Positions 17,326-38,574 of a DNA stretch of 45,443 nucleotides are shown here, one piece after another (the stretch's first letter is position 1; the number at the start of each line of letters is the position of its first letter). Below the pieces are notes generated by a model. That model saw nothing but the letters and a program-made list of their open reading frames with translations. It was not told where the DNA came from and ran no database searches. A program made the position numbers and the translations under genes. The stretch covers positions 1-45,443 of IMG/VR virus record IMGVR_UViG_3300028883_000071; one strand, 5' to 3'. Source of the stretch: a virus.

Positions 17326-18051
17326 ATGGGAAAAGCAAACGTCTATTTGTACGGCGCGACCGGGCTGGCATCGACCGGGCAGACGGTCCGCTTGCAAACC
17401 CTGGACGGCCAAACCAACTACTCGCTCACCGAGGTGGGAAACGGGTGGTACGGCGACGACGAGGACTCCGATGTGCCGGCCGGATATTATAACGTCCAGG
17501 TGTACTCCGGCGGGGCCTGGAGCACGGTCGAAACGGGCGGGCCGAAGTATATGCCGGGCAGCAATCACGCGGCGCACTTCGCGGGGCACGGGACCGGCGC
17601 AAACGGGTCAATCGGTGCCGCGGATATTCCGTACAACACGATCCACTCGGGGCACATTATCGCCCGGAACGTGCTCGGGTCACATATCGCGCTCGAGGGG
17701 ATCGAGGCGGAACACCTGGCGGACCTGGCGCTGACGATCGACAAGCTCAAGGTGTGGGTGTATCGCGAGGTGACGGTGACCGGCACGGAAAGCAGCCCGG
17801 AGACGTTCGACTTCGCGACGGACCTCGGCGAGGACGACTTCGGCAACGTGATCCCGTCCGCCATGACGCCCGAGCCTATCGTGATCCTGGGGGCGCGCAG
17901 TGAAGAAAAGGCGCGGATCGAGGACCTGGTGCAGAATGTCTCGACGCAGTTTACGGGGATCAAGCTGGCGAAACCGGACGGCGGGGGGACCTGCAAGGTC
18001 GACCTGGTGATCATCCAGGGGAACCCGTGGACCGAAAGCGCGGGGTCGTGA
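17326..18051 (+). CDS. Tail structural protein with fibre-like segment
   Basis: 241 residues from ATG after TTTAGGAG. The N-terminal 75 residues are a beta-sandwich-like domain (VYLYGATGLASTGQTVRLQT). Residues about 115-145 (HSGHIIARNVLGSHIALEG, then EAEHLADLALTIDKLKV) have the heptad/amphipathic pattern seen in phage fibre collars. The C-terminal part is beta-rich. It lies just upstream of the tail chaperones and may be a fibre-like decoration of the tail tube. Function is not certain. Confidence 0.5.
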   Translation: MGKANVYLYGATGLASTGQTVRLQTLDGQTNYSLTEVGNGWYGDDEDSDVPAGYYNVQVYSGGAWSTVETGGPKYMPGSNHAAHFAGHGTGANGSIGAADIPYNTIHSGHIIARNVLGSHIALEGIEAEHLADLALTIDKLKVWVYREVTVTGTESSPETFDFATDLGEDDFGNVIPSAMTPEPIVILGARSEEKARIEDLVQNVSTQFTGIKLAKPDGGGTCKVDLVIIQGNPWTESAGS

Positions 18052-18617
18052 TGAAACTACCGGACGAGGTGGCCGCAGCGGTCGAGCGTGTGCAGCACTT
18101 ATTCCAGGGCGACGGGTACCGAACCCGTGGCGAGATCGAGGACGACTGGCGCGAGCAGGCGTCGAAGCTGGTGGCGGTGTGTCGATTAAACGGCACGGAG
18201 TACGAGATCCCGTTGCCGGGGGTGTGGGACCAGCTGCGGATCGACCAGGTCGCTGCGGATCTGTCCGCGGGTAAAATCGACGACCTGCAGGCGATCGGGG
18301 AGTACAAGGCGACGCTCGACCTGGGGCTGGAGGCGCGCCGTGCGTTCGCCGCACACGACCCGTTGCCGGATCCACCCGCGCGGGGGTCGAACGCCTGGCA
18401 GCAGCGTGTCGATCGTGCGCTTTTGGAGCTGAACGTGCTCGGCGCTGACGAGTGGTTTTCGGCGTTCTGGTCGGTGATGCAGGGGCTGCACGACGAAAAA
18501 AAAAAGGAGCTGGCGCAGGTGTCGGCGAGGTCGTCGAGGACTTTCGCCTTACTGCTGCGCTCCTATACGAGCACTCCGGGGTCGGATGGCGAGAGGTCTA
18601 CGGTCTCGGAGGGTTGA
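18051..18617 (+). CDS. Tail assembly chaperone G-like protein
   Basis: 188 residues, ATG in an ATGA overlap with the previous stop. It is a helical protein located before the tape measure, the place of lambda G. It ends in frame at 18617 if no shift occurs. The A10 run at 18496-18505 lies in codons DEKKK (about residues 148-152), where a -1 shift produces the longer GT product. G and GT chaperones coat the tape measure before tube assembly. The low sequence similarity among G proteins means the call rests on context and the shift signal. Confidence 0.75.
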   Translation: MKLPDEVAAAVERVQHLFQGDGYRTRGEIEDDWREQASKLVAVCRLNGTEYEIPLPGVWDQLRIDQVAADLSAGKIDDLQAIGEYKATLDLGLEARRAFAAHDPLPDPPARGSNAWQQRVDRALLELNVLGADEWFSAFWSVMQGLHDEKKKELAQVSARSSRTFALLLRSYTSTPGSDGERSTVSEG

Positions 18618-18706
18618 CCCTGCCGCAGCTGCAGGCGGTGATGGAGGGGGTCGCGGAGAAAATCCGACTCCGAAACGAGGCGATTGAGGAGGCGCGGTCC
18701 AGGTGA
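18051..18706 (+). CDS. Tail assembly chaperone GT by -1 programmed frameshift
   Basis: Reading through A10 (18496-18505) with a -1 slip fuses the first about 152 residues of the G frame to the frame ending at 18706, giving about 218 residues. The added tail LTAALLYEHSGVGWREVYG, then LTLPQLQAVMEGVAEKI is a compact helical T-like domain. The downstream frame lacks its own start with ribosome site at the right place, which favours the fusion. Frameshifted G/GT pairs before the tape measure are conserved in tailed phages. The ratio of products cannot be judged here. Confidence 0.75.
18496..18505 (+). promoter_or_regulatory. A10 slippery sequence for -1 frameshift
   Basis: Ten consecutive A. The upstream frame reads GAA AAA AAA AAG and the downstream frame reads AAA GGA. 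GGAGC follows directly. Homopolymer A slips with tandem AAA lysine codons are a known -1 signal. It is the only long A-run I noticed in this GC-rich genome. Confidence 0.8.
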
Positions 18707-18712
18707 TTGAGA

Positions 18713-19249
18713 TCAAAGAGAGAACTCAAGACCTGCGCGCGCAGAAACACCAGACCAATTCGCCGGGCCGGTTTTAATGGAGCGGAAAGACAACCCAAAC
18801 AGAGCCGATAACGGCTTACTCGGGGCGTTTCTGAACTCAACCTCAATCTGGTACCCTGCGGAAACCCGCAAGGAATCTGCGCCGGGAATAATAAACAGCG
18901 GCGCAACAGAAAACGAAACGACGCGAGACAGGGGGTGAGCGGCGATGCCGACAGCGAACGAGTGAGCGTCAAGGCTGATTTTCCCGTTTTCGATCCAGTC
19001 AAACCCGCCCGGTCGCTGGATCGTGTCGGACCCCTTGAAAGACTGGTAATCTGTTCTGAGGTCAATATGCGACGATACAACGGCAGCGAACGCAGCAAAG
19101 GCGATAGCGGATCCCGTCTCGACGTAAGAGGCGACCTCGTGATTGCGTTCGCCGGCAAAGTATTTGTCGGCATAGACGCCAAACGTCACGTCCGCACCGA
19201 ACGCGCCATTTGTAGCCACCAGGCAGAAAAATAGAAAAAGGCGTTTCAT
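18713..19249 (-). CDS. Outer-membrane beta-barrel protein (Lom/OmpX-like moron)
   Basis: 178 residues, minus strand, ATG 8 nt after AAGGAG. Signal peptide MKRLFLFFCLVATNGAFG, likely cut before ADV. The mature part alternates polar and hydrophobic residues in strands (IAFAAFAAVVSSHIDLRTDY, VVSFSVAPLFIIPGA, ALFGLSFRSI) and ends in a barrel-type strand SARAGLEFSL. Size matches eight-stranded Lom/OmpX/Ail barrels (about 150-190 residues). Such prophage proteins alter the surface of lysogens (adhesion, serum resistance or phage exclusion). It has its own promoter, opposes all surrounding genes, and has lower GC. The family call is by pattern; the final residue is Leu rather than the usual Phe. Confidence 0.7.
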   Translation of the reverse strand: MKRLFLFFCLVATNGAFGADVTFGVYADKYFAGERNHEVASYVETGSAIAFAAFAAVVSSHIDLRTDYQSFKGSDTIQRPGGFDWIENGKISLDAHSFAVGIAAHPLSRVVSFSVAPLFIIPGADSLRVSAGYQIEVEFRNAPSKPLSALFGLSFRSIKTGPANWSGVSARAGLEFSL

Positions 19250-19281
19250 TGCCTACGCTCCTTGACAATCGAGTTCAGCAA

Positions 19282-19310
19282 AAAGTAGGTCAGAGGACGG
19301 TTGCGGTCAA
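19282..19310 (-). promoter_or_regulatory. Sigma70-type promoter of the moron gene
   Basis: On the minus strand TTGACC (19305-19310) is followed by exactly 17 nt and then TACTTT (19282-19287). Start of transcription would be near 19275, giving a leader of about 26 nt to the ATG at 19249. This independent promoter is typical of morons expressed in lysogens. Confidence 0.7.
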
Positions 19311-19330
19311 GTCGAAAAGGGTGCTATTTT
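19301..19330 (+). promoter_or_regulatory. Divergent promoter for the C4-like RNA/antirepressor transcript
   Basis: TTGCGG (19301-19306), 18 nt, then TATTTT (19325-19330) with an extended -10 TGC just before it. Transcription would start near 19337, inside the palindrome at 19336-19353. Its -35 overlaps the -35 of the minus-strand promoter, so the two promoters compete. Confidence 0.55.
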
Positions 19331-19335
19331 GCACT

Positions 19336-19353
19336 TGACCCTATATAGGGTCA
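19336..19353. promoter_or_regulatory. Perfect 18-bp palindrome, probable operator
   Basis: TGACCCTATATAGGGTCA is an uninterrupted palindrome at the predicted start of the antirepressor transcript. It is a likely protein-binding site. It differs from the operators at 33.8 kb (GACACC-N4-GGTGTC), so a different regulator, perhaps of the host, may bind it. Confidence 0.65.
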
Positions 19354-19360
19354 CGGCGAA

Positions 19361-19457
19361 CATAGTCAGCGAAGCCTCTTGGCCGGGGCTTCGCACCACA
19401 ACCGATGTTCCTTTTTGGGGAGTCCGGGGTGCCGCAAGGTCCCGGGGGCTGACTATG
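19361..19457 (+). ncRNA. C4-like antisense RNA upstream of the antirepressor gene
   Basis: A closed three-stem fold is visible. The outer stem CATAGTCAGC (19361-19370) pairs with GCTGACTATG (19448-19457). Hairpin 1 is GCGAAGCC (19369-19376) with GGCTTCGC (19387-19394). Hairpin 2 is CCGGG (19424-19428) with CCCGG (19441-19445), capped by GCC-GCAA-GGT. The single-stranded stretch TTCCTTTTTGGGGAG (19408-19422) is complementary to 15 nt over the Shine-Dalgarno of the downstream gene, with one G-U pair. In phages P1 and P7, c4 RNA of about 77 nt, cut from the same transcript, blocks ant expression by pairing in this way. I could not run a covariance search; the assignment rests on structure, complementarity and the ORF6N neighbour. 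Confidence 0.8.
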
Positions 19458-19466
19458 GCCCGCCAG

Positions 19467-19481
19467 CTCCCCAGAAAGGAA
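19467..19481 (+). promoter_or_regulatory. Target of the antisense RNA over the antirepressor ribosome site
   Basis: CTCCCCAGAAAGGAA contains the Shine-Dalgarno (AAAGGA) 6 nt before the ATG at 19487. Its reverse complement matches 19408-19422 at 14 of 15 positions, the other being a G-U pair. Pairing would hide the ribosome site. Confidence 0.75.
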
Positions 19482-19486
19482 TACCT

Positions 19487-20344
19487 ATGATGTCCGATGC
19501 ACGACCTACCACAAGCCGCCTGCCTGCACCAGGCGCAGCGATCCCGAGGGAGATGATCTACCGGGTCCGAGAGTGTCATGTGATGCTCGACCGCGACCTG
19601 GCGACGCTGTACGGAACAACCCCCGGACGGATCAACCAAGCGTACAAACGGAACAAGGAGCGGTTCCCCGCCGACTTCGCCTTTCTCCTGAAAAAGGGCG
19701 AGGTTCCGGTAAGGTCACAAAATGTGACCTTAGAAAAAGGGAAGCATTACCGCTATCTCCCCCGAGCGTTCACGGAGCACGGCGCCTTGATGTTGGCGAA
19801 CGTGTTGCGCAGCGAGCGGGCGGTGCAAGCGTCGATCGCGATTGTCCGTGCGTTTGTCGAGATGCGGGACCGTGAGGCGACCCGCTGGAAAGCGGCGCGG
19901 GAGATCGGGCAACTCCGTTTCGAGCCTGCTCGGGTCTTGGACGAGATCCGGCGGCGCGGTTACCCGGTCGCTCACGCGACGAAAGAGATGGGTCTGCCAC
20001 CCTCGACAGTGAAAAGCTGGCAGTACCGGGGCGGCGGCAACCCCCAGCCTCAGAATTACGCCCGCGCGCTGGAGTGGCTTAGAAAACACCGTCCTCTTGT
20101 TGAGAGTGAAGCGCTGCCGGCACTCTCGGCCCTGGTCGAGGTTCGGTCAGCGCCCCAACTAGAGCCGTGGCTCAGGACCTGGCTCGACGACCCGGAGGTC
20201 GCTTTACGTTACGGGGTGACCGAAGAGGAGGCGGCGATCCTGGCCGCATGGAACCCGAAGGCGAAAACGGTTACGGGGACTGCTTTCCCGGCGCTGCTAA
20301 TGTGCGTGCGCCATGTCTTGCGCTACACTGCTGAACTCGAATAG
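19487..20344 (+). CDS. ORF6N-domain antirepressor
   Basis: 285 residues from ATG 19487 (ATG ATG; SD AAAGGA). The N-terminal 120 residues match the ORF6N domain: VMLDRDLATLYGT, then INQAYKRNKERFPADFAFLL, then YLPRAFTEHGALMLANVL, then IVRAFVEMRD. The C-terminal part has a possible helix-turn-helix (ATKEMGLPPSTVKSWQY) and a charged tail. ORF6N/KilA-N proteins are phage antirepressors and regulators that inactivate prophage repressors or act on DNA. Translation should be controlled by the C4-like RNA just upstream, and transcription ends at a strong terminator at 20365. Its repressor target, possibly the product of 33087-33827, is not shown by the sequence. Confidence 0.8.
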   Translation: MMSDARPTTSRLPAPGAAIPREMIYRVRECHVMLDRDLATLYGTTPGRINQAYKRNKERFPADFAFLLKKGEVPVRSQNVTLEKGKHYRYLPRAFTEHGALMLANVLRSERAVQASIAIVRAFVEMRDREATRWKAAREIGQLRFEPARVLDEIRRRGYPVAHATKEMGLPPSTVKSWQYRGGGNPQPQNYARALEWLRKHRPLVESEALPALSALVEVRSAPQLEPWLRTWLDDPEVALRYGVTEEEAAILAAWNPKAKTVTGTAFPALLMCVRHVLRYTAELE

Positions 20345-20364
20345 GACGACAAAAAGCCGATCCG

Positions 20365-20395
20365 GGCGTCCGCCGGAAGGCGGGCGCCTTTTTTT
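20365..20395 (+). terminator. Strong intrinsic terminator after the antirepressor gene
   Basis: GGCGTCCGCC (20365-20374), loop GGAA, GGCGGGCGCC (20379-20388) with one G-U pair, followed by seven T. It closes the island and would also affect read-through from the tail operon unless antitermination acts. Confidence 0.9.
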
Positions 20396-29233: not shown

Positions 29234-29260
29234 TTGCCTCAGAACACACCAGGAGGGGCA

Positions 29261-30106
29261 ATGCCTGCAAAAGTGGTATCTGTTGTGATGCAGAAAGGCG
29301 GGGTCGGGAAAAGCACGATCACGTTTAATCTCGGTTACAACCTCAGCCGGTCGCACCGTGTCCTGCTGCTGGACACAGATGGACAGTACCAGCTGACAAA
29401 GCTCGCCGCGGCGGAACGGACCGCGGAGGCGACGCTGGCGAAAGCGTACGAGCTGCCGGACTCGGACCTGCGGGACTTTATTCAGCCGACCAAGTTCCGC
29501 GAGGAGGGGTCGGGACCGTTTCCTCGTTTGGGGATCGTGCCGAGCGAGTGGAACGTGAACGACGTCGACTCGGCGGTGCTTACCTGGCGACACACTCGCC
29601 TCGACCCGCAGCGGACGCTGGACAAGCTGCTCAAGCGGTCGCGGGAGGTGCTGGAGTGGTACGACGTCGTCCTGGTCGATACGCCTCCGGCGCTAAACAA
29701 CCTGACGGCAAACTCGCTGATGGCGAGCGATTACGTCCTCCTCCCTATTCAAATGAGCGACGATTTCAGCGTCGATAACCTGATGCACCCGCTGGCACTG
29801 ATCGGGGAGGTCGTGAAAGAGACGGGGGGCCGTCTCAAGCCGCTCGGCTTCATTCAGAATATGCACGATCACCGTTTGCTGATCACTCGCGCGGTCCGTG
29901 CGGACCTGGAACGCTACAGCGAAGAGACCGGCATCCCGATCCTCGAGCCGGCAATTCCGGACTCGACGGTCGTGCAGCAGGCGAACAAACTAAAGGAGCC
30001 GATCGCGGCGTACGATCACCGCAGCGCGCCAGGGCGTGCCCTGTCGCAGCTCACGCAGCTGATCGCGCGTGAGATCGGTTTGGACGGCGGCGCGAGGGGT
30101 AACTGA
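29261..30106 (+). CDS. parA: ParA-family partition ATPase
   Basis: 281 residues from ATG 29261 (SD AGGAGGGG). The deviant Walker A QKGGVGKST (residues 11-19), with the signature lysine, and Walker B VVLVDTPPAL (about 137-146) define the ParA/MinD family. There is no N-terminal helix-turn-helix, so it is of the smaller ParA type. ParA proteins move plasmids or prophages apart before division using a ParB-type partner on a centromere site. The next gene overlaps by TGATG. No ParB with a recognisable motif is present, so the partner is unknown. Confidence 0.85.
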   Translation: MPAKVVSVVMQKGGVGKSTITFNLGYNLSRSHRVLLLDTDGQYQLTKLAAAERTAEATLAKAYELPDSDLRDFIQPTKFREEGSGPFPRLGIVPSEWNVNDVDSAVLTWRHTRLDPQRTLDKLLKRSREVLEWYDVVLVDTPPALNNLTANSLMASDYVLLPIQMSDDFSVDNLMHPLALIGEVVKETGGRLKPLGFIQNMHDHRLLITRAVRADLERYSEETGIPILEPAIPDSTVVQQANKLKEPIAAYDHRSAPGRALSQLTQLIAREIGLDGGARGN

Positions 30107-31383
30107 TGGCCTCGAACAAGTTCAAACGCCTACTCGAAGAGGGGGGACGTCGGGACGAGTCCCAGCTGGCAGCGGAAGCGGCGGGGAGACTGCTGCATCG
30201 TCGTCCAGTGCCGGAAGCTGTCGAGCTGCCTGCGCACCAGGGGGACCCGCCGGAAGCTGTCGAGGCGACCGAGGACGCCTCCCCCCCACTCCCTGCGGAT
30301 CCGAAGCGAAAGCCGAAGCGGAAACGGCCGGCCAAGCCAAAGCCGGACCCGCGGAGCGAGCAGCCGGTCACGGAAACGAGCCTCCCCCCTACTCCCCAGC
30401 CCGAGGCGATTGATGGGGTGCCGCCCGAGTCGGGCCGTTATCACCTGCACCCGGACAACGTGCGCGCGGCGCTGAGGATGGAACTCGGTCGCAGCCGTCT
30501 CGCGGTCGACCTCATGCTGCACGTATACGGGGAGATTCGTCGCCTCGGGACCGGTTACCTGGACACGTCGCAGCAGACGCTGGCGGACGCGATCGACAGC
30601 CGTCGCCAGAAAATCGGCGAGAAGCTGCGGGAGCTGGAACGGTCTCGGCGTTTGATCACCTGCGAGACGTTGCGTGCGCCATACAATCGGAACATACCAA
30701 CCGGGACGCGGATCCGTCTCACGCGGCGCTTTTCGGACCTCTGCGCATTTGTTCAGGGTGACCCCTACGGGGGCAGGGTGTCCCCTGTGGGGGTGCAGGC
30801 GACCCCGTACGGTGAGCAGGGACCCCCCGCTGGTGGACAGGTGTCCCCTACTGGTGAGGGGCTACCCCCTGACAGGGTGCAGGGGTCCCCGTCTGGTGGA
30901 CAGGGGGATCCCGCCAGGGTGGACGTGCCCCCCGCAGGAGACGGCGACGGTGTGCCCGCGGGGAGCGGGGACGTGGCCTCTGCAGGTGGGGGTCGCTCTG
31001 ATAAAAAGAGTTATTCAAACAGCGAAAGAGAGAGGGTAGACTCATCCTCATCCGAAGAGGAGGGGGACGACGACGCGCTCGAACGCGCTGCAAAAAACAT
31101 CGTGGCGAGGTTTCTGGCATTGACCAGGGGCGAGATCGCTGCGCAGAGTTTTATCGCCGGGCGGGGGGACGGGTACACAACCTGGCAGGCGGACCTGATC
31201 GCCAAGCTGCAGACGTTACCCGTCGAGATTCAACAGGCGCCGCGCGAGTTCTGGTACGAGTGGCCGTTGCTGGTCTACCGTCAGCAGGCGTATCAGCAGA
31301 TCGCGTACCTGGTGCGTCGCCTGGAGTCGCAGGGGTGCGCCGAGTTTTGGGAGTGGAAAAAGCGGAAGGGAGTCAAGATATGA
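30106..31383 (+). CDS. Second winged-helix initiator, plasmid-type, with intragenic repeats
   Basis: 425 residues, start overlapping the parA stop. The N-terminus (1-110) is low-complexity and basic. Residues about 115-215 form a winged helix (LDTSQQTLADAIDSRRQKIG, then LRELERSRRLITCETL). Residues 217-279 are nine seven-residue repeats (QGDPYGG, QATPYGE, QGPPAGG and similar). A Ser/Glu-rich linker and a helical C-terminal domain (about 325-425) follow. This order (winged helix, repeat linker, C-terminal domain) is the same as in the initiator at the window ends. Beside ParA it may be the plasmid-mode initiator, or a centromere-binding partition partner. No motif decides between them. Confidence 0.65.
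   Translation: MASNKFKRLLEEGGRRDESQLAAEAAGRLLHRRPVPEAVELPAHQGDPPEAVEATEDASPPLPADPKRKPKRKRPAKPKPDPRSEQPVTETSLPPTPQPEAIDGVPPESGRYHLHPDNVRAALRMELGRSRLAVDLMLHVYGEIRRLGTGYLDTSQQTLADAIDSRRQKIGEKLRELERSRRLITCETLRAPYNRNIPTGTRIRLTRRFSDLCAFVQGDPYGGRVSPVGVQATPYGEQGPPAGGQVSPTGEGLPPDRVQGSPSGGQGDPARVDVPPAGDGDGVPAGSGDVASAGGGRSDKKSYSNSERERVDSSSSEEEGDDDALERAAKNIVARFLALTRGEIAAQSFIAGRGDGYTTWQADLIAKLQTLPVEIQQAPREFWYEWPLLVYRQQAYQQIAYLVRRLESQGCAEFWEWKKRKGVKI
30754..30942 (+). repeat. Nine 21-bp tandem repeats, candidate second origin or centromere
   Basis: Units start at 30754, 30775, 30796, 30817, 30838, 30859, 30880, 30901 and 30922. Typical units read CAG GGG TCC CCG TCT GGT GGA. The 21-bp period is two helical turns, as in plasmid iterons. 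An A+T-rich patch follows (TGATAAAAAGAGTTATTCAAA, split as TGATAAAAAG and AGTTATTCAAA, 31000-31019), unusual in this GC-rich DNA. It contains TTATTCAAA (31011-31019), two mismatches from a DnaA box. Confidence 0.75.
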
Positions 31384-31556
31384 GCCTCACCTCAACACAG
31401 TTTCAGCAGCTGCTCGTCGCGATTATGGCAGGACCGATCGCGGGGGGGTATATCTCGAACGGCGAAGCGTTTGAACAAGCCGCGGACTCGGCGCTTGAAA
31501 TGGCGCAGGAGCTGGCAGGCAGGATCACGACGGTCGAGCGACCGGGAGGCAACTGA
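31380..31556 (+). CDS. Small unknown protein between initiator and recombinase
   Basis: 58 residues, ATG in an ATGA overlap with the previous stop, and its own stop overlaps the next start. It is helical with FQQLLVAIMAGPIAGGYISN and EQAADSALEMAQELAGRI. It is too short and featureless to assign; copy-control or partition accessory roles are conceivable from its place. Confidence 0.6.
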   Translation: MSLTSTQFQQLLVAIMAGPIAGGYISNGEAFEQAADSALEMAQELAGRITTVERPGGN

Positions 31557-32341
31557 TGCCGCCGAAAGGAACGGTCGGGGAGTACAGCTGGCAGATCCCG
31601 GAGTGGGAGTTTGTTTCCCGCGGGATGGTGCAGAGTGTGCTGCGTGTGCTGGGGGCAAAGGAGTCAAAGCGTGATTACACCCTCTGGTTCCTGTTTTTCC
31701 GTTTGGGTTTACGTCCAGGGGAGGCGGTCCAGCTGACGGTCGGGGACGTGTTCGACGACGAGGGGCAGGTCCGTGACGTGCTGAGGATCCGTGCCGAGAT
31801 CACGAAAACGAAAACAGCGCGGTCGATCGCGCTGCCGGCCGAGGTGCGTAAGCAGCTCCAGCGGTACCAGGGCTGGAAGCGGAAAGCGAACAAGGCGGGA
31901 AAGCGCCGGCACCCAGGGCGTATGATCGACCAGGAACCGACGCAGCCGTTTGTCTGCCCGGCGTGTTATGATGCCGGCGAGGACCTGCCGGGCTGCGGGG
32001 TGTGCAGCGGGACGGGGTGGGTCGATCCGCCCCTGTTTGTGAGCCGTGAGCGTGGCCGCTGGGGGGAACCGCGAGGGCTGACGGTCGACCAGGTGGGGAA
32101 GATGGCGAAAGCGCTGCGGAAACAGCTGGATCTGCCGTCCTGGTTCACGGCGCACAAGGGGCGGCACTGGCTCGGGACGAGGCTGGCAAACCCGGACCCG
32201 GAACGTGAGACGGCGGGCAATCCAGTCGCCGCGCAGCGGATCCTGGGGCACGCGAGCCTGCGGACGACGATGCAGGCATACGTGAAAGTGACACCGGAAC
32301 AGCAGCGGGAAGCGCTGCGAGCACTGGACGGGGTGAGGTGA
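31556..32341 (+). CDS. Tyrosine recombinase with an inserted zinc finger
   Basis: 261 residues, mostly catalytic domain. Arg I is in GLRPGEAVQL (about 50), the H-x-x-R box is AHKGRHW (about 198-204), and GHASLRTTMQAYV (about 232-244) supplies the Tyr nucleophile. Between Arg I and the His box is an insert with CPAC and CGVCSGTG (about 134-154), a DnaJ-like four-cysteine zinc motif not normally found in Cre/Xer. A core-binding N-terminal domain is nearly absent. Following ParA and the second initiator, it may resolve multimers of a circular prophage, as Cre does in P1; it could also be an accessory integrase. Confidence 0.8.
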   Translation: MPPKGTVGEYSWQIPEWEFVSRGMVQSVLRVLGAKESKRDYTLWFLFFRLGLRPGEAVQLTVGDVFDDEGQVRDVLRIRAEITKTKTARSIALPAEVRKQLQRYQGWKRKANKAGKRRHPGRMIDQEPTQPFVCPACYDAGEDLPGCGVCSGTGWVDPPLFVSRERGRWGEPRGLTVDQVGKMAKALRKQLDLPSWFTAHKGRHWLGTRLANPDPERETAGNPVAAQRILGHASLRTTMQAYVKVTPEQQREALRALDGVR

Positions 32342-37048: not shown

Positions 37049-37483
37049 ATGGTCGAAAAACTGGACGACGGAGTCGTGATGCGTGAGCCAGAGTGCACGG
37101 ATCCACAACTCCCAAACCGTGACACAGAAAACGGGCGCGTGCTGGTCGAGGGGTTCAGGTGGCACCGTCGCGGCAAAGCGGGCCGGCGTTTCCAGGTGGG
37201 GGTCGGTCCGGACGGACCGGTTTTTGCGCCGCCGGGATGCGTGCCGAAGCGGGGGCTCAAGGGTGGCCTCGAGGACCGTGCAGTCGATAGCCGGGTCCGT
37301 GAACAGCGGAACCAAAAAGGGCAGTATCGCCTGCCCTGGGGCAGCCGGACGCTCACCTGGCGCGATGCCGCCGGGGACAAGCACACGTCGTACCTGGTTT
37401 GGCTCGACGTCGAACAGCTGCCCGCGGAGCTGCAGGAGACCCTGGCAACCTGGGACCGTGGCGCGCTGGAGACAGCGGCGTGA
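37049..37483 (+). CDS. Unknown protein upstream of the integrase
   Basis: 144 residues. It is basic in the middle (FRWHRRGKAGRRFQVGVG) with a C-terminal helical end. Its stop overlaps the GTG of the integrase. It may be an accessory to integration, such as an excisionase-like protein, judged only by location. Confidence 0.5.
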   Translation: MVEKLDDGVVMREPECTDPQLPNRDTENGRVLVEGFRWHRRGKAGRRFQVGVGPDGPVFAPPGCVPKRGLKGGLEDRAVDSRVREQRNQKGQYRLPWGSRTLTWRDAAGDKHTSYLVWLDVEQLPAELQETLATWDRGALETAA

Positions 37484-38574
37484 GAGCGGACCTTCCCACA
37501 TATCTCGAGCTGATCGTCGAGGGCTGGTGCAACTACCTGACGCACGAGCAGCGGAACGAACCGAGCACGGTGCGGACGTACCGCGCATCGGTCGTCCAGC
37601 TGCTGCAGGGTGTCGGGGAGGTCGGACTGGCGCTCGAGGACCGTGGGGATCTGCGGGAAAATCTCACCCTGTCCCTGATCGGGTCCTGGTACCAGTCGCA
37701 CAGCTATAAATCCTCGACGGTGTACCGTCACAGCGTCGCCGTGAGGTCGTTTTTCACCTGGTGCGAGAAGTCCGGCCACTTCGATTTTAACCCGGTGCGG
37801 CGCTGGAAGGTAAAGCGCCGCCGTGAAAATCCCCCCTATCGACCGACGACGCGCGAGGTCGAGGATCTGATCCAGTTCTGGTACAAGAAAGGTGCACCGC
37901 ACGGGATCCGAAACGCTGCGATGCTGGTCGTGCTCGCTGAGTGTGGCCTGCGTCGCTCCGAGCTGGTGGCGCTGAGGATGCAGGACGTCCAGGAGCGACC
38001 CGGTGAGGATCACTTCCTGGTGTACGTGCCGGCGATCAAGAGCGCGGACTTTCGCGAGGTGCCGCTGGGGCAGATCGAAGAGCGGGACGGCGTCAAAACG
38101 GGCAGCCTCGCCGCGAACTACCTGCACCGCTGGGTCCTGTACGCCCGCGGGCAGCTGCGCCTGCAGGACCGGGATCCACTCTTTCCGCCGATCGGGAAGC
38201 TGGCGCGAGGGGCTGCGCCGACCCGTGAGCAGCTGGTGCAGCGTTTCGGGCTATTGAAACGGATGGCGCCGGGTCGGGTCGACCGGGTGATCAAAGCCGC
38301 GACCGCGGCGACAGGTGTGCCGGCAGCAATCAGCCCCCACTCGCTGCGGCGTTTCTTCGCGTCCAATTATATCGCCGCAGGTGTGCCGGCGGAAACGGTT
38401 CGGCAGTACGGGGGCTGGTCCAGCCTCGAGGCGATGGAGCCGTATATCCGGGACGCTGGACTGATCACAGCAGGGGAAGCAACGAAGCGCTCGCCGTTGT
38501 CAAAGGCGAAAATCGACGCGCGGGACCAGGGCTGGCTACAGCTGCCCCTGCCGTTTCCCGCAGCACAGGCTTAA
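37480..38574 (+). CDS. int: Integrase, tyrosine recombinase
   Basis: 364 residues, GTG start in a GTGA overlap. A core-binding SAM-like N-terminal domain (about 1-110, VRTYRASVVQLLQGVGEVGL, FFTWCEKSGHFDFNPVRRW) is followed by the catalytic domain with Arg I CGLRRSELVAL (about 155), HSLRRFFAS (about 287) and WSSLEAMEPYI with the Tyr nucleophile (about 322). These are the standard catalytic residues for site-specific integration and excision. It is separate from the zinc-finger recombinase at 31.6-32.3 kb. A repeat-rich non-coding stretch follows, as is common for attP. Confidence 0.88.
   Translation: MRADLPTYLELIVEGWCNYLTHEQRNEPSTVRTYRASVVQLLQGVGEVGLALEDRGDLRENLTLSLIGSWYQSHSYKSSTVYRHSVAVRSFFTWCEKSGHFDFNPVRRWKVKRRRENPPYRPTTREVEDLIQFWYKKGAPHGIRNAAMLVVLAECGLRRSELVALRMQDVQERPGEDHFLVYVPAIKSADFREVPLGQIEERDGVKTGSLAANYLHRWVLYARGQLRLQDRDPLFPPIGKLARGAAPTREQLVQRFGLLKRMAPGRVDRVIKAATAATGVPAAISPHSLRRFFASNYIAAGVPAETVRQYGGWSSLEAMEPYIRDAGLITAGEATKRSPLSKAKIDARDQGWLQLPLPFPAAQA

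Follow-up and report, generated by a model that had tools for sequence, protein, structure and literature searches.

A probable cis-acting translational-control leader upstream of an ORF6N gene in a phage tail-operon island

The DNA directly upstream of an ORF6N gene in the phage record IMGVR_UViG_3300028883_000071 (45,443 nucleotides, all of which were analysed and are referred to here as the window) contains a sequence complementary to the ribosome site of that gene, and this antisense stretch, which lies in an island of the tail operon, most likely controls the gene. The region from 19355 to 19486 is probably a leader that acts in cis to control translation of the ORF6N gene and has two mutually exclusive folds, a reading to which we assign a probability of roughly 0.6. 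Antirepressor-type genes need to be silenced in a lysogen, and several phages achieve this silencing at the RNA level.

The antisense (anti-Shine-Dalgarno) strand, TTCCTTTTTGGGGAG (19408-19422, + strand), pairs over 15 nt, with one G-U, with the target strand CTCCCCAGAAAGGAA (19467-19481, + strand), which holds the Shine-Dalgarno sequence of the ORF6N gene and ends six bases 5' of its ATG at 19487. The pairing extends to 18 pairs, three of them G-U (19406-19423 with 19466-19483). The 15-nt complementarity had been described in the initial annotation of this DNA, and it holds up well: when the 183 Shine-Dalgarno-bearing starts of the window were scored for upstream complementarity, the ORF6N start came first (39.4, with the runner-up at 26.8), and none of 20,000 shuffles, in which the ribosome site was kept fixed and the upstream part was shuffled, equalled it. 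Across the window, the antisense strand has one complementary site alone at up to three mismatches. The best of its off-target duplexes in the phage are at -28 kcal/mol or weaker versus -30 for the true target, energies so near each other that energy alone is not specific.

Table 1. Coordinates of the leader, the ORF6N gene, neighbouring features and C4 RNAs upstream of other ORF6N genes (positions refer to the window unless a contig is named)
Feature	Position	Strand	Basis or remark
Divergent 178-aa gene, same island as the ORF6N gene	18713-19249	-	Signal-peptide-like N-terminus; no family assigned by Pfam or PHROG
Perfect 18-bp palindrome TGACCCTATATAGGGTCA, operator-like	19336-19353		Adjoins the leader on its 5' side; sequence search
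Possible closing stem, 5' arm CATAGTCAGC	19361-19370	+	Partner 19448-19457 when the leader is folded in isolation
First hairpin GCGAAGCC..GGCTTCGC	19369-19394	+	In the predicted ribosome-site-blocked fold; drawable in the three-stem fold
Possible 15-codon leader ORF (ATG..TGA) spanning the antisense strand	19405-19452	+	Read from sequence; speculative
Sub-threshold c4-2 (RF02944) match	19409-19482	+	28.5 bits (gathering cut-off 41); E 5.7e-4 in a search of 401 bases with all families
Inner hairpin CCGGG..CCCGG	19424-19446	+	Folding prediction
Possible closing stem, 3' arm GCTGACTATG	19448-19457	+	Folding prediction
ORF6N-domain gene, 285 aa, annotated as antirepressor-type	19487-20344	+	PF10543 E 1.6e-28; phrog_4792 anti-repressor E 1.5e-20
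Intragenic palindrome GGTCACAAAATGTGACC, codons for RSQNVT	19713-19729		In the window's ORF6N gene
Terminator-like hairpin 3' of the ORF6N gene	20364-20389	+	Prediction
C4 upstream of ORF6N genes	L100:4802-4888, L105:643-718, L109:4783-4865, L110:4782-4862, L111:4785-4868		RF01695

The initial annotation had also placed an ORF6N gene downstream of the leader, inside an island of the tail operon, and both points are confirmed. The product of the gene that starts at 19487 matches PF10543 at 99.3 bits (cut-off 27.8; E-value in Table 1), and its family annotation suggests an antirepressor-type role. Together with the divergent 178-aa gene, it lies between a pair of tail-region genes and the genes for a Phage_tail_S protein (20413) and the tape measure (20898). 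Just upstream of the tape-measure region, a run of ten A (18496-18505) is found at the overlap of two ORFs that are one frame apart (18027-18617 and 18452-18706), and the A AAA AAG at 18500-18506 is probably the site of a programmed -1 frameshift in a tail assembly chaperone pair. Additionally, two regions of the window, 29234-32341 and 37399-38574, carry between them a gene for a ParA-like partition protein (phrog_164, E 3e-42) and a pair of tyrosine integrases, and it is possible that a phage with this combination is a phage-plasmid. The phage, whose IMG/VR record is linear, is unplaced, and the only matches of its terminase are to distant Streptomyces phages, at 22-24% identity. The operator-like palindrome that adjoins the leader is the sole perfect palindrome of at least 14 bp in the window, and no second copy of it was found with up to three mismatches. 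From base composition, approximately 0.35 palindromes of 18 bp are estimated to occur by chance in the whole window, and thus it is the position alone of this one that is notable.

The two folds and their order come from energy models, which include neither pseudoknots nor proteins. When 19361-19460 is folded in isolation, a 10-bp stem is predicted to close the RNA. This closing stem is marginal, as 80 of 2,000 shuffles (4%) match it. The three-stem RNA leader proposed in the initial annotation thus survives in part: the 10-bp closing stem and the strong hairpin at 19369-19394 can be drawn, but the stem is not exceptional among shuffles, the predicted interior differs (the three-stem drawing reaches -44.4 against a minimum of -47.9, and is therefore not the minimum fold of the isolated RNA), and the whole arrangement is predicted to be incompatible with pairing at the ribosome site. 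Once the ribosome site is included, 19361-19486 is predicted to fold as a ribosome-site hairpin of -68.2 kcal/mol (z -5.0, with 0 of 200 shuffles as good). In the predicted mRNA fold, the Shine-Dalgarno sequence of the ORF6N gene is hidden beyond chance (z -5.0; 0 of 20,000 shuffles), and the ribosome site is left approximately 1% unpaired by self-pairing in cis. The closing-stem fold and the ribosome-site pairing are predicted to be mutually exclusive. In simulated folding of a growing transcript, the closing stem is present from approximately 19460 to 19472 and the blocked form appears from 19478-19484. The blocked form is the more stable by approximately 15 kcal/mol (-72.5 versus -57.6 kcal/mol with the closing stem), and a predicted barrier of approximately 26 kcal/mol lies on the direct path from one form to the other. 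Because the closing stem is marginal, the switching half of the proposal rests on energy models.

If the leader acts in cis as predicted, then the closing stem could form during leader synthesis, and the ribosome site would be free. Transcription of the ribosome site would allow 19406-19423 to pair with it over 18 bp, giving the more stable state and turning translation off. The default state of the ORF6N gene would thus be off, with expression limited to freshly made, metastable RNA or to cases in which the long hairpin is opened. A ribosome translating an upstream frame could open it, as could a protein or a further RNA. For instance, translation of the possible 15-codon frame across the antisense strand could keep the hairpin open, although this is marked as speculation because the frame has no Shine-Dalgarno sequence. 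No terminator-like site was found between the leader and the ORF6N gene, and thus the two can share one transcript. Counting against the cis-acting reading, no sigma-70-like promoter was found upstream of the leader.

The initial annotation had called the leader a C4 RNA and had proposed the C4 covariance model as its test. C4 is built from a long P1 stem that encloses adjacent P2 and P3 stems, forms an independent stable domain, and is processed by RNase P into a stable RNA that acts in trans. Of its two antisense parts, b' occupies the P3 loop and is complementary to b2 of the target, and a', in the strand that follows P3, is complementary to a2. In the P1 record, the target lies just before icd (a2 48423, b2 48452) and another lies upstream of c4 (a1, b1). 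The leader resembles the C4 RNAs of P1 and P7 (RF01695) in that an antirepressor-type gene follows it on the same transcript, in its complementarity to a ribosome site just downstream (19467-19481, with the ATG at 19487), and in its possible closing stem. However, RF01695 gives no match in 19200-19600 even at E 10 (cut-off 45 bits), whereas it scores c4 of phage P1, the positive control, at 68.8 bits, and no Rfam family reaches its gathering level in the leader region. Unlike C4, with a' and b' divided between a strand and the P3 loop, the leader has one continuous antisense stretch of 15-18 nt (19406-19423), which lies between the hairpins at 19369-19394 and 19424-19446 and not in a P3 loop. 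Neither was an independent P1-like domain found, as the 10-bp stem is marginal and is predicted to come apart when transcription has passed the ribosome site. A second upstream target of the a1/b1 type is absent from the window at up to three mismatches, and there is no c4-a1b1 match. When six canonical C4 leaders (that of P1 and those of five ORF6N phages) were folded in the same way, a separate C4 domain was predicted with the ribosome site 30-53% unpaired, versus approximately 1% here; the site is thus free in C4 and predicted to be locked in cis in this leader. Given the lack of a covariance match, the different placement of the antisense sequence and the locked ribosome site, together with a closing stem that 4% of shuffles reach, membership of the C4 family was rejected.

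It is possible that the leader nevertheless works partly like C4, provided that the RNA is cut free. In such a C4-like scheme, the leader would be excised, keep its closing stem and repress the ORF6N ribosome site in trans, including that of incoming phages. The antisense sequence lies directly 5' of the gene whose ribosome site it matches, as in P1 c4-icd-ant, the isolated RNA can form the closing stem, and true C4 RNAs precede the ORF6N genes of other phages. Additionally, the GG at 19355 and the CGCCA at 19461-19465, read from the sequence on either side of the leader, could be C4-style flanks. Against this stand the silence of RF01695, the frequency of the closing stem among shuffles, the placement of the antisense sequence outside any P3 loop, the lack of a second a1/b1-type target, and the prediction that the antisense strand pairs in cis and so destroys the closing stem. 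Overall, we regard repression in trans by an excised leader as unlikely. A leader with two jobs, which would block translation in cis in the uncut mRNA and, when cut free with its closing stem kept, act as an antisense RNA in trans on the same site, appears quite improbable. If true, such a leader would fall between an RNA switch acting in cis and an antisense RNA of the C4 type, and would sit in a tail-operon island, not in an immunity locus.

The use of C4 on an ORF6N gene, presented as new in the initial annotation, is not new. Among 24 IMG/VR contigs with an ORF6N relative, four (L100, L109, L110, and L111) have, directly 5' of the ORF6N gene, a C4 RNA that scores above the cut-off (47-67 bits), and that of a fifth, L105, falls 0.8 bits under the RF01695 cut-off; all five proteins contain PF10543. 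Similar to the leader, the RNAs of these contigs are complementary to an ORF6N ribosome site, and in L100, L105, L109, and L111 it is the P3 loop that is complementary. In contrast to the leader, they carry a true C4 domain, which scores 44-67 bits and holds the antisense sequence in its P3 loop, and their ORF6N proteins are distant from that of the window. C4 upstream of ORF6N genes was not found stated in the literature searched; the annotation follows from public models. Since true C4 RNAs are found before ORF6N genes, it seems that silencing at the ribosome site has targeted these genes repeatedly. Should the predicted mechanism of the leader hold, silencing would be by self-blocking in cis here, in contrast to C4 acting in trans elsewhere.

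Other structured RNAs were observed in these and related contigs. A further C4 lies at 6893-6975 of L109, and positions 525-616 of L105, just 5' of its C4-ORF6N unit, weakly match c4-a1b1 (28.1 bits) and also isrK (34.1 bits). An sRNA-Xcc1-like RNA (RF02221, 45.5 bits, cut-off 53) lies directly 5' of the ORF6N gene at L107:4809-4894, and L106 and L108 have structured, C4-like leaders before their ORF6N genes that match no family. Three related C4-ORF6N contigs carry type II hammerhead ribozymes of 44-56 bits (L109:1747-1813, L110:2250-2316, and L111:1073-1139).

The sole notable sub-threshold Rfam match in the region of the leader is to c4-2, a clan relative of C4, and 19409-19482 could accordingly be read as a divergent member of that family. 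The order of stems is identical to that of c4-2 and the match has an E-value of 5.7e-4, but its 28.5 bits are 12.5 bits below the cut-off of 41. Moreover, the outer stem of the match is the antisense:ribosome-site duplex itself, and the ribosome site of the gene would, unlike in c4-2, belong to the RNA's own stem. c4-2 was absent from 238 genomes and from control genomes alike; the former result is therefore uninformative and offers no comparison with the genes that usually lie downstream of c4-2. Membership of c4-2 is thus very unlikely, although the match may reflect a C4-type ancestry of the leader and, taken together with the lack of any relative, leaves a trans-acting product possible.

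The predicted cis-acting control has a parallel in a Salmonella prophage, Gifsy-1, of which the isrK-orf45-anrP mRNA has two structures, one of them translationally inactive, upstream of anrP (PMC4825925). That mRNA is opened in trans by its own terminated short leader RNA, IsrK, and the block operates via orf45 and translational coupling (PMC4825925). Both mRNAs would have two exclusive structures of which one blocks translation, a likeness in logic only, with no sequence relation claimed. Unlike isrK-orf45-anrP, the leader in the window has no terminator and no known opener.

Single-protein queries, which may leave out near relatives, returned no close relatives of the ORF6N, capsid, and 622-aa structural proteins in viral_contigs, and none of the ORF6N protein in genome_contigs, and this protein forms a long branch of unsure position in the tree. 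DNA relatives of the leader together with the gene were absent from phage records, and neither the antisense/target pair, nor the closing stem, nor the c4-2 consensus had a match when used as patterns in viral_contigs. A comparable leader is likewise absent upstream of approximately 105 ORF6N loci, barring C4-type phage loci and operator-like palindromes, and from further distant ORF6N loci inspected by eye. With regard to loss in relatives that keep the ORF6N gene, which the initial annotation had offered as its refutation, the genes checked were distant ORF6N genes alone, and the leader was in none. The phage is thus an orphan, and none of these searches returned a relative with the leader in which its pairing could be checked for covariation. 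That the inverted repeat has no RNA role, and is due to chance, a DNA-level element, or a remnant of island insertion, would fit with the lack of relatives and of covariation and with the abundance of inverted repeats nearby (the 18-bp palindrome included), but is highly improbable given that none of 20,000 shuffles is as good and that one arm coincides with the Shine-Dalgarno sequence.

A separate sign that ORF6N genes may have their own control site is a covarying palindrome within them. This 17-bp palindrome, GGTCRCANNNTGYGACC, is present with at most one mismatch inside the gene in 89 of 150 ORF6N loci (1.6 expected from the flanks), mostly 190-260 nt from the start, and within 250 nt upstream in 18 of the 150 (0.6 expected); the genes that carry it come from many phyla (loci L008-L156), and the copy in the window is listed in Table 1. 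It is encoded as R-S-Q-x-V/A-T with a strong codon bias, AGG being used for 59 of 69 Arg and ACC for 67 of 79 Thr. Additionally, its arms covary: TCA occurs with GTG 46 times and TCG with GCG 26 times, other combinations being rare, and this paired switch requires 12 changes on the protein tree, at least six of them independent and on well-supported branches. From these sequence patterns, the intragenic palindrome looks like a control site that is kept at the nucleic-acid level, and the most obvious guess is that it is a DNA-binding site of the ORF6N protein. Among 13 genomes searched for the exact palindrome, seven of the eight that were chosen for their ORF6N genes have 1 to 5 copies, and the five others have none.
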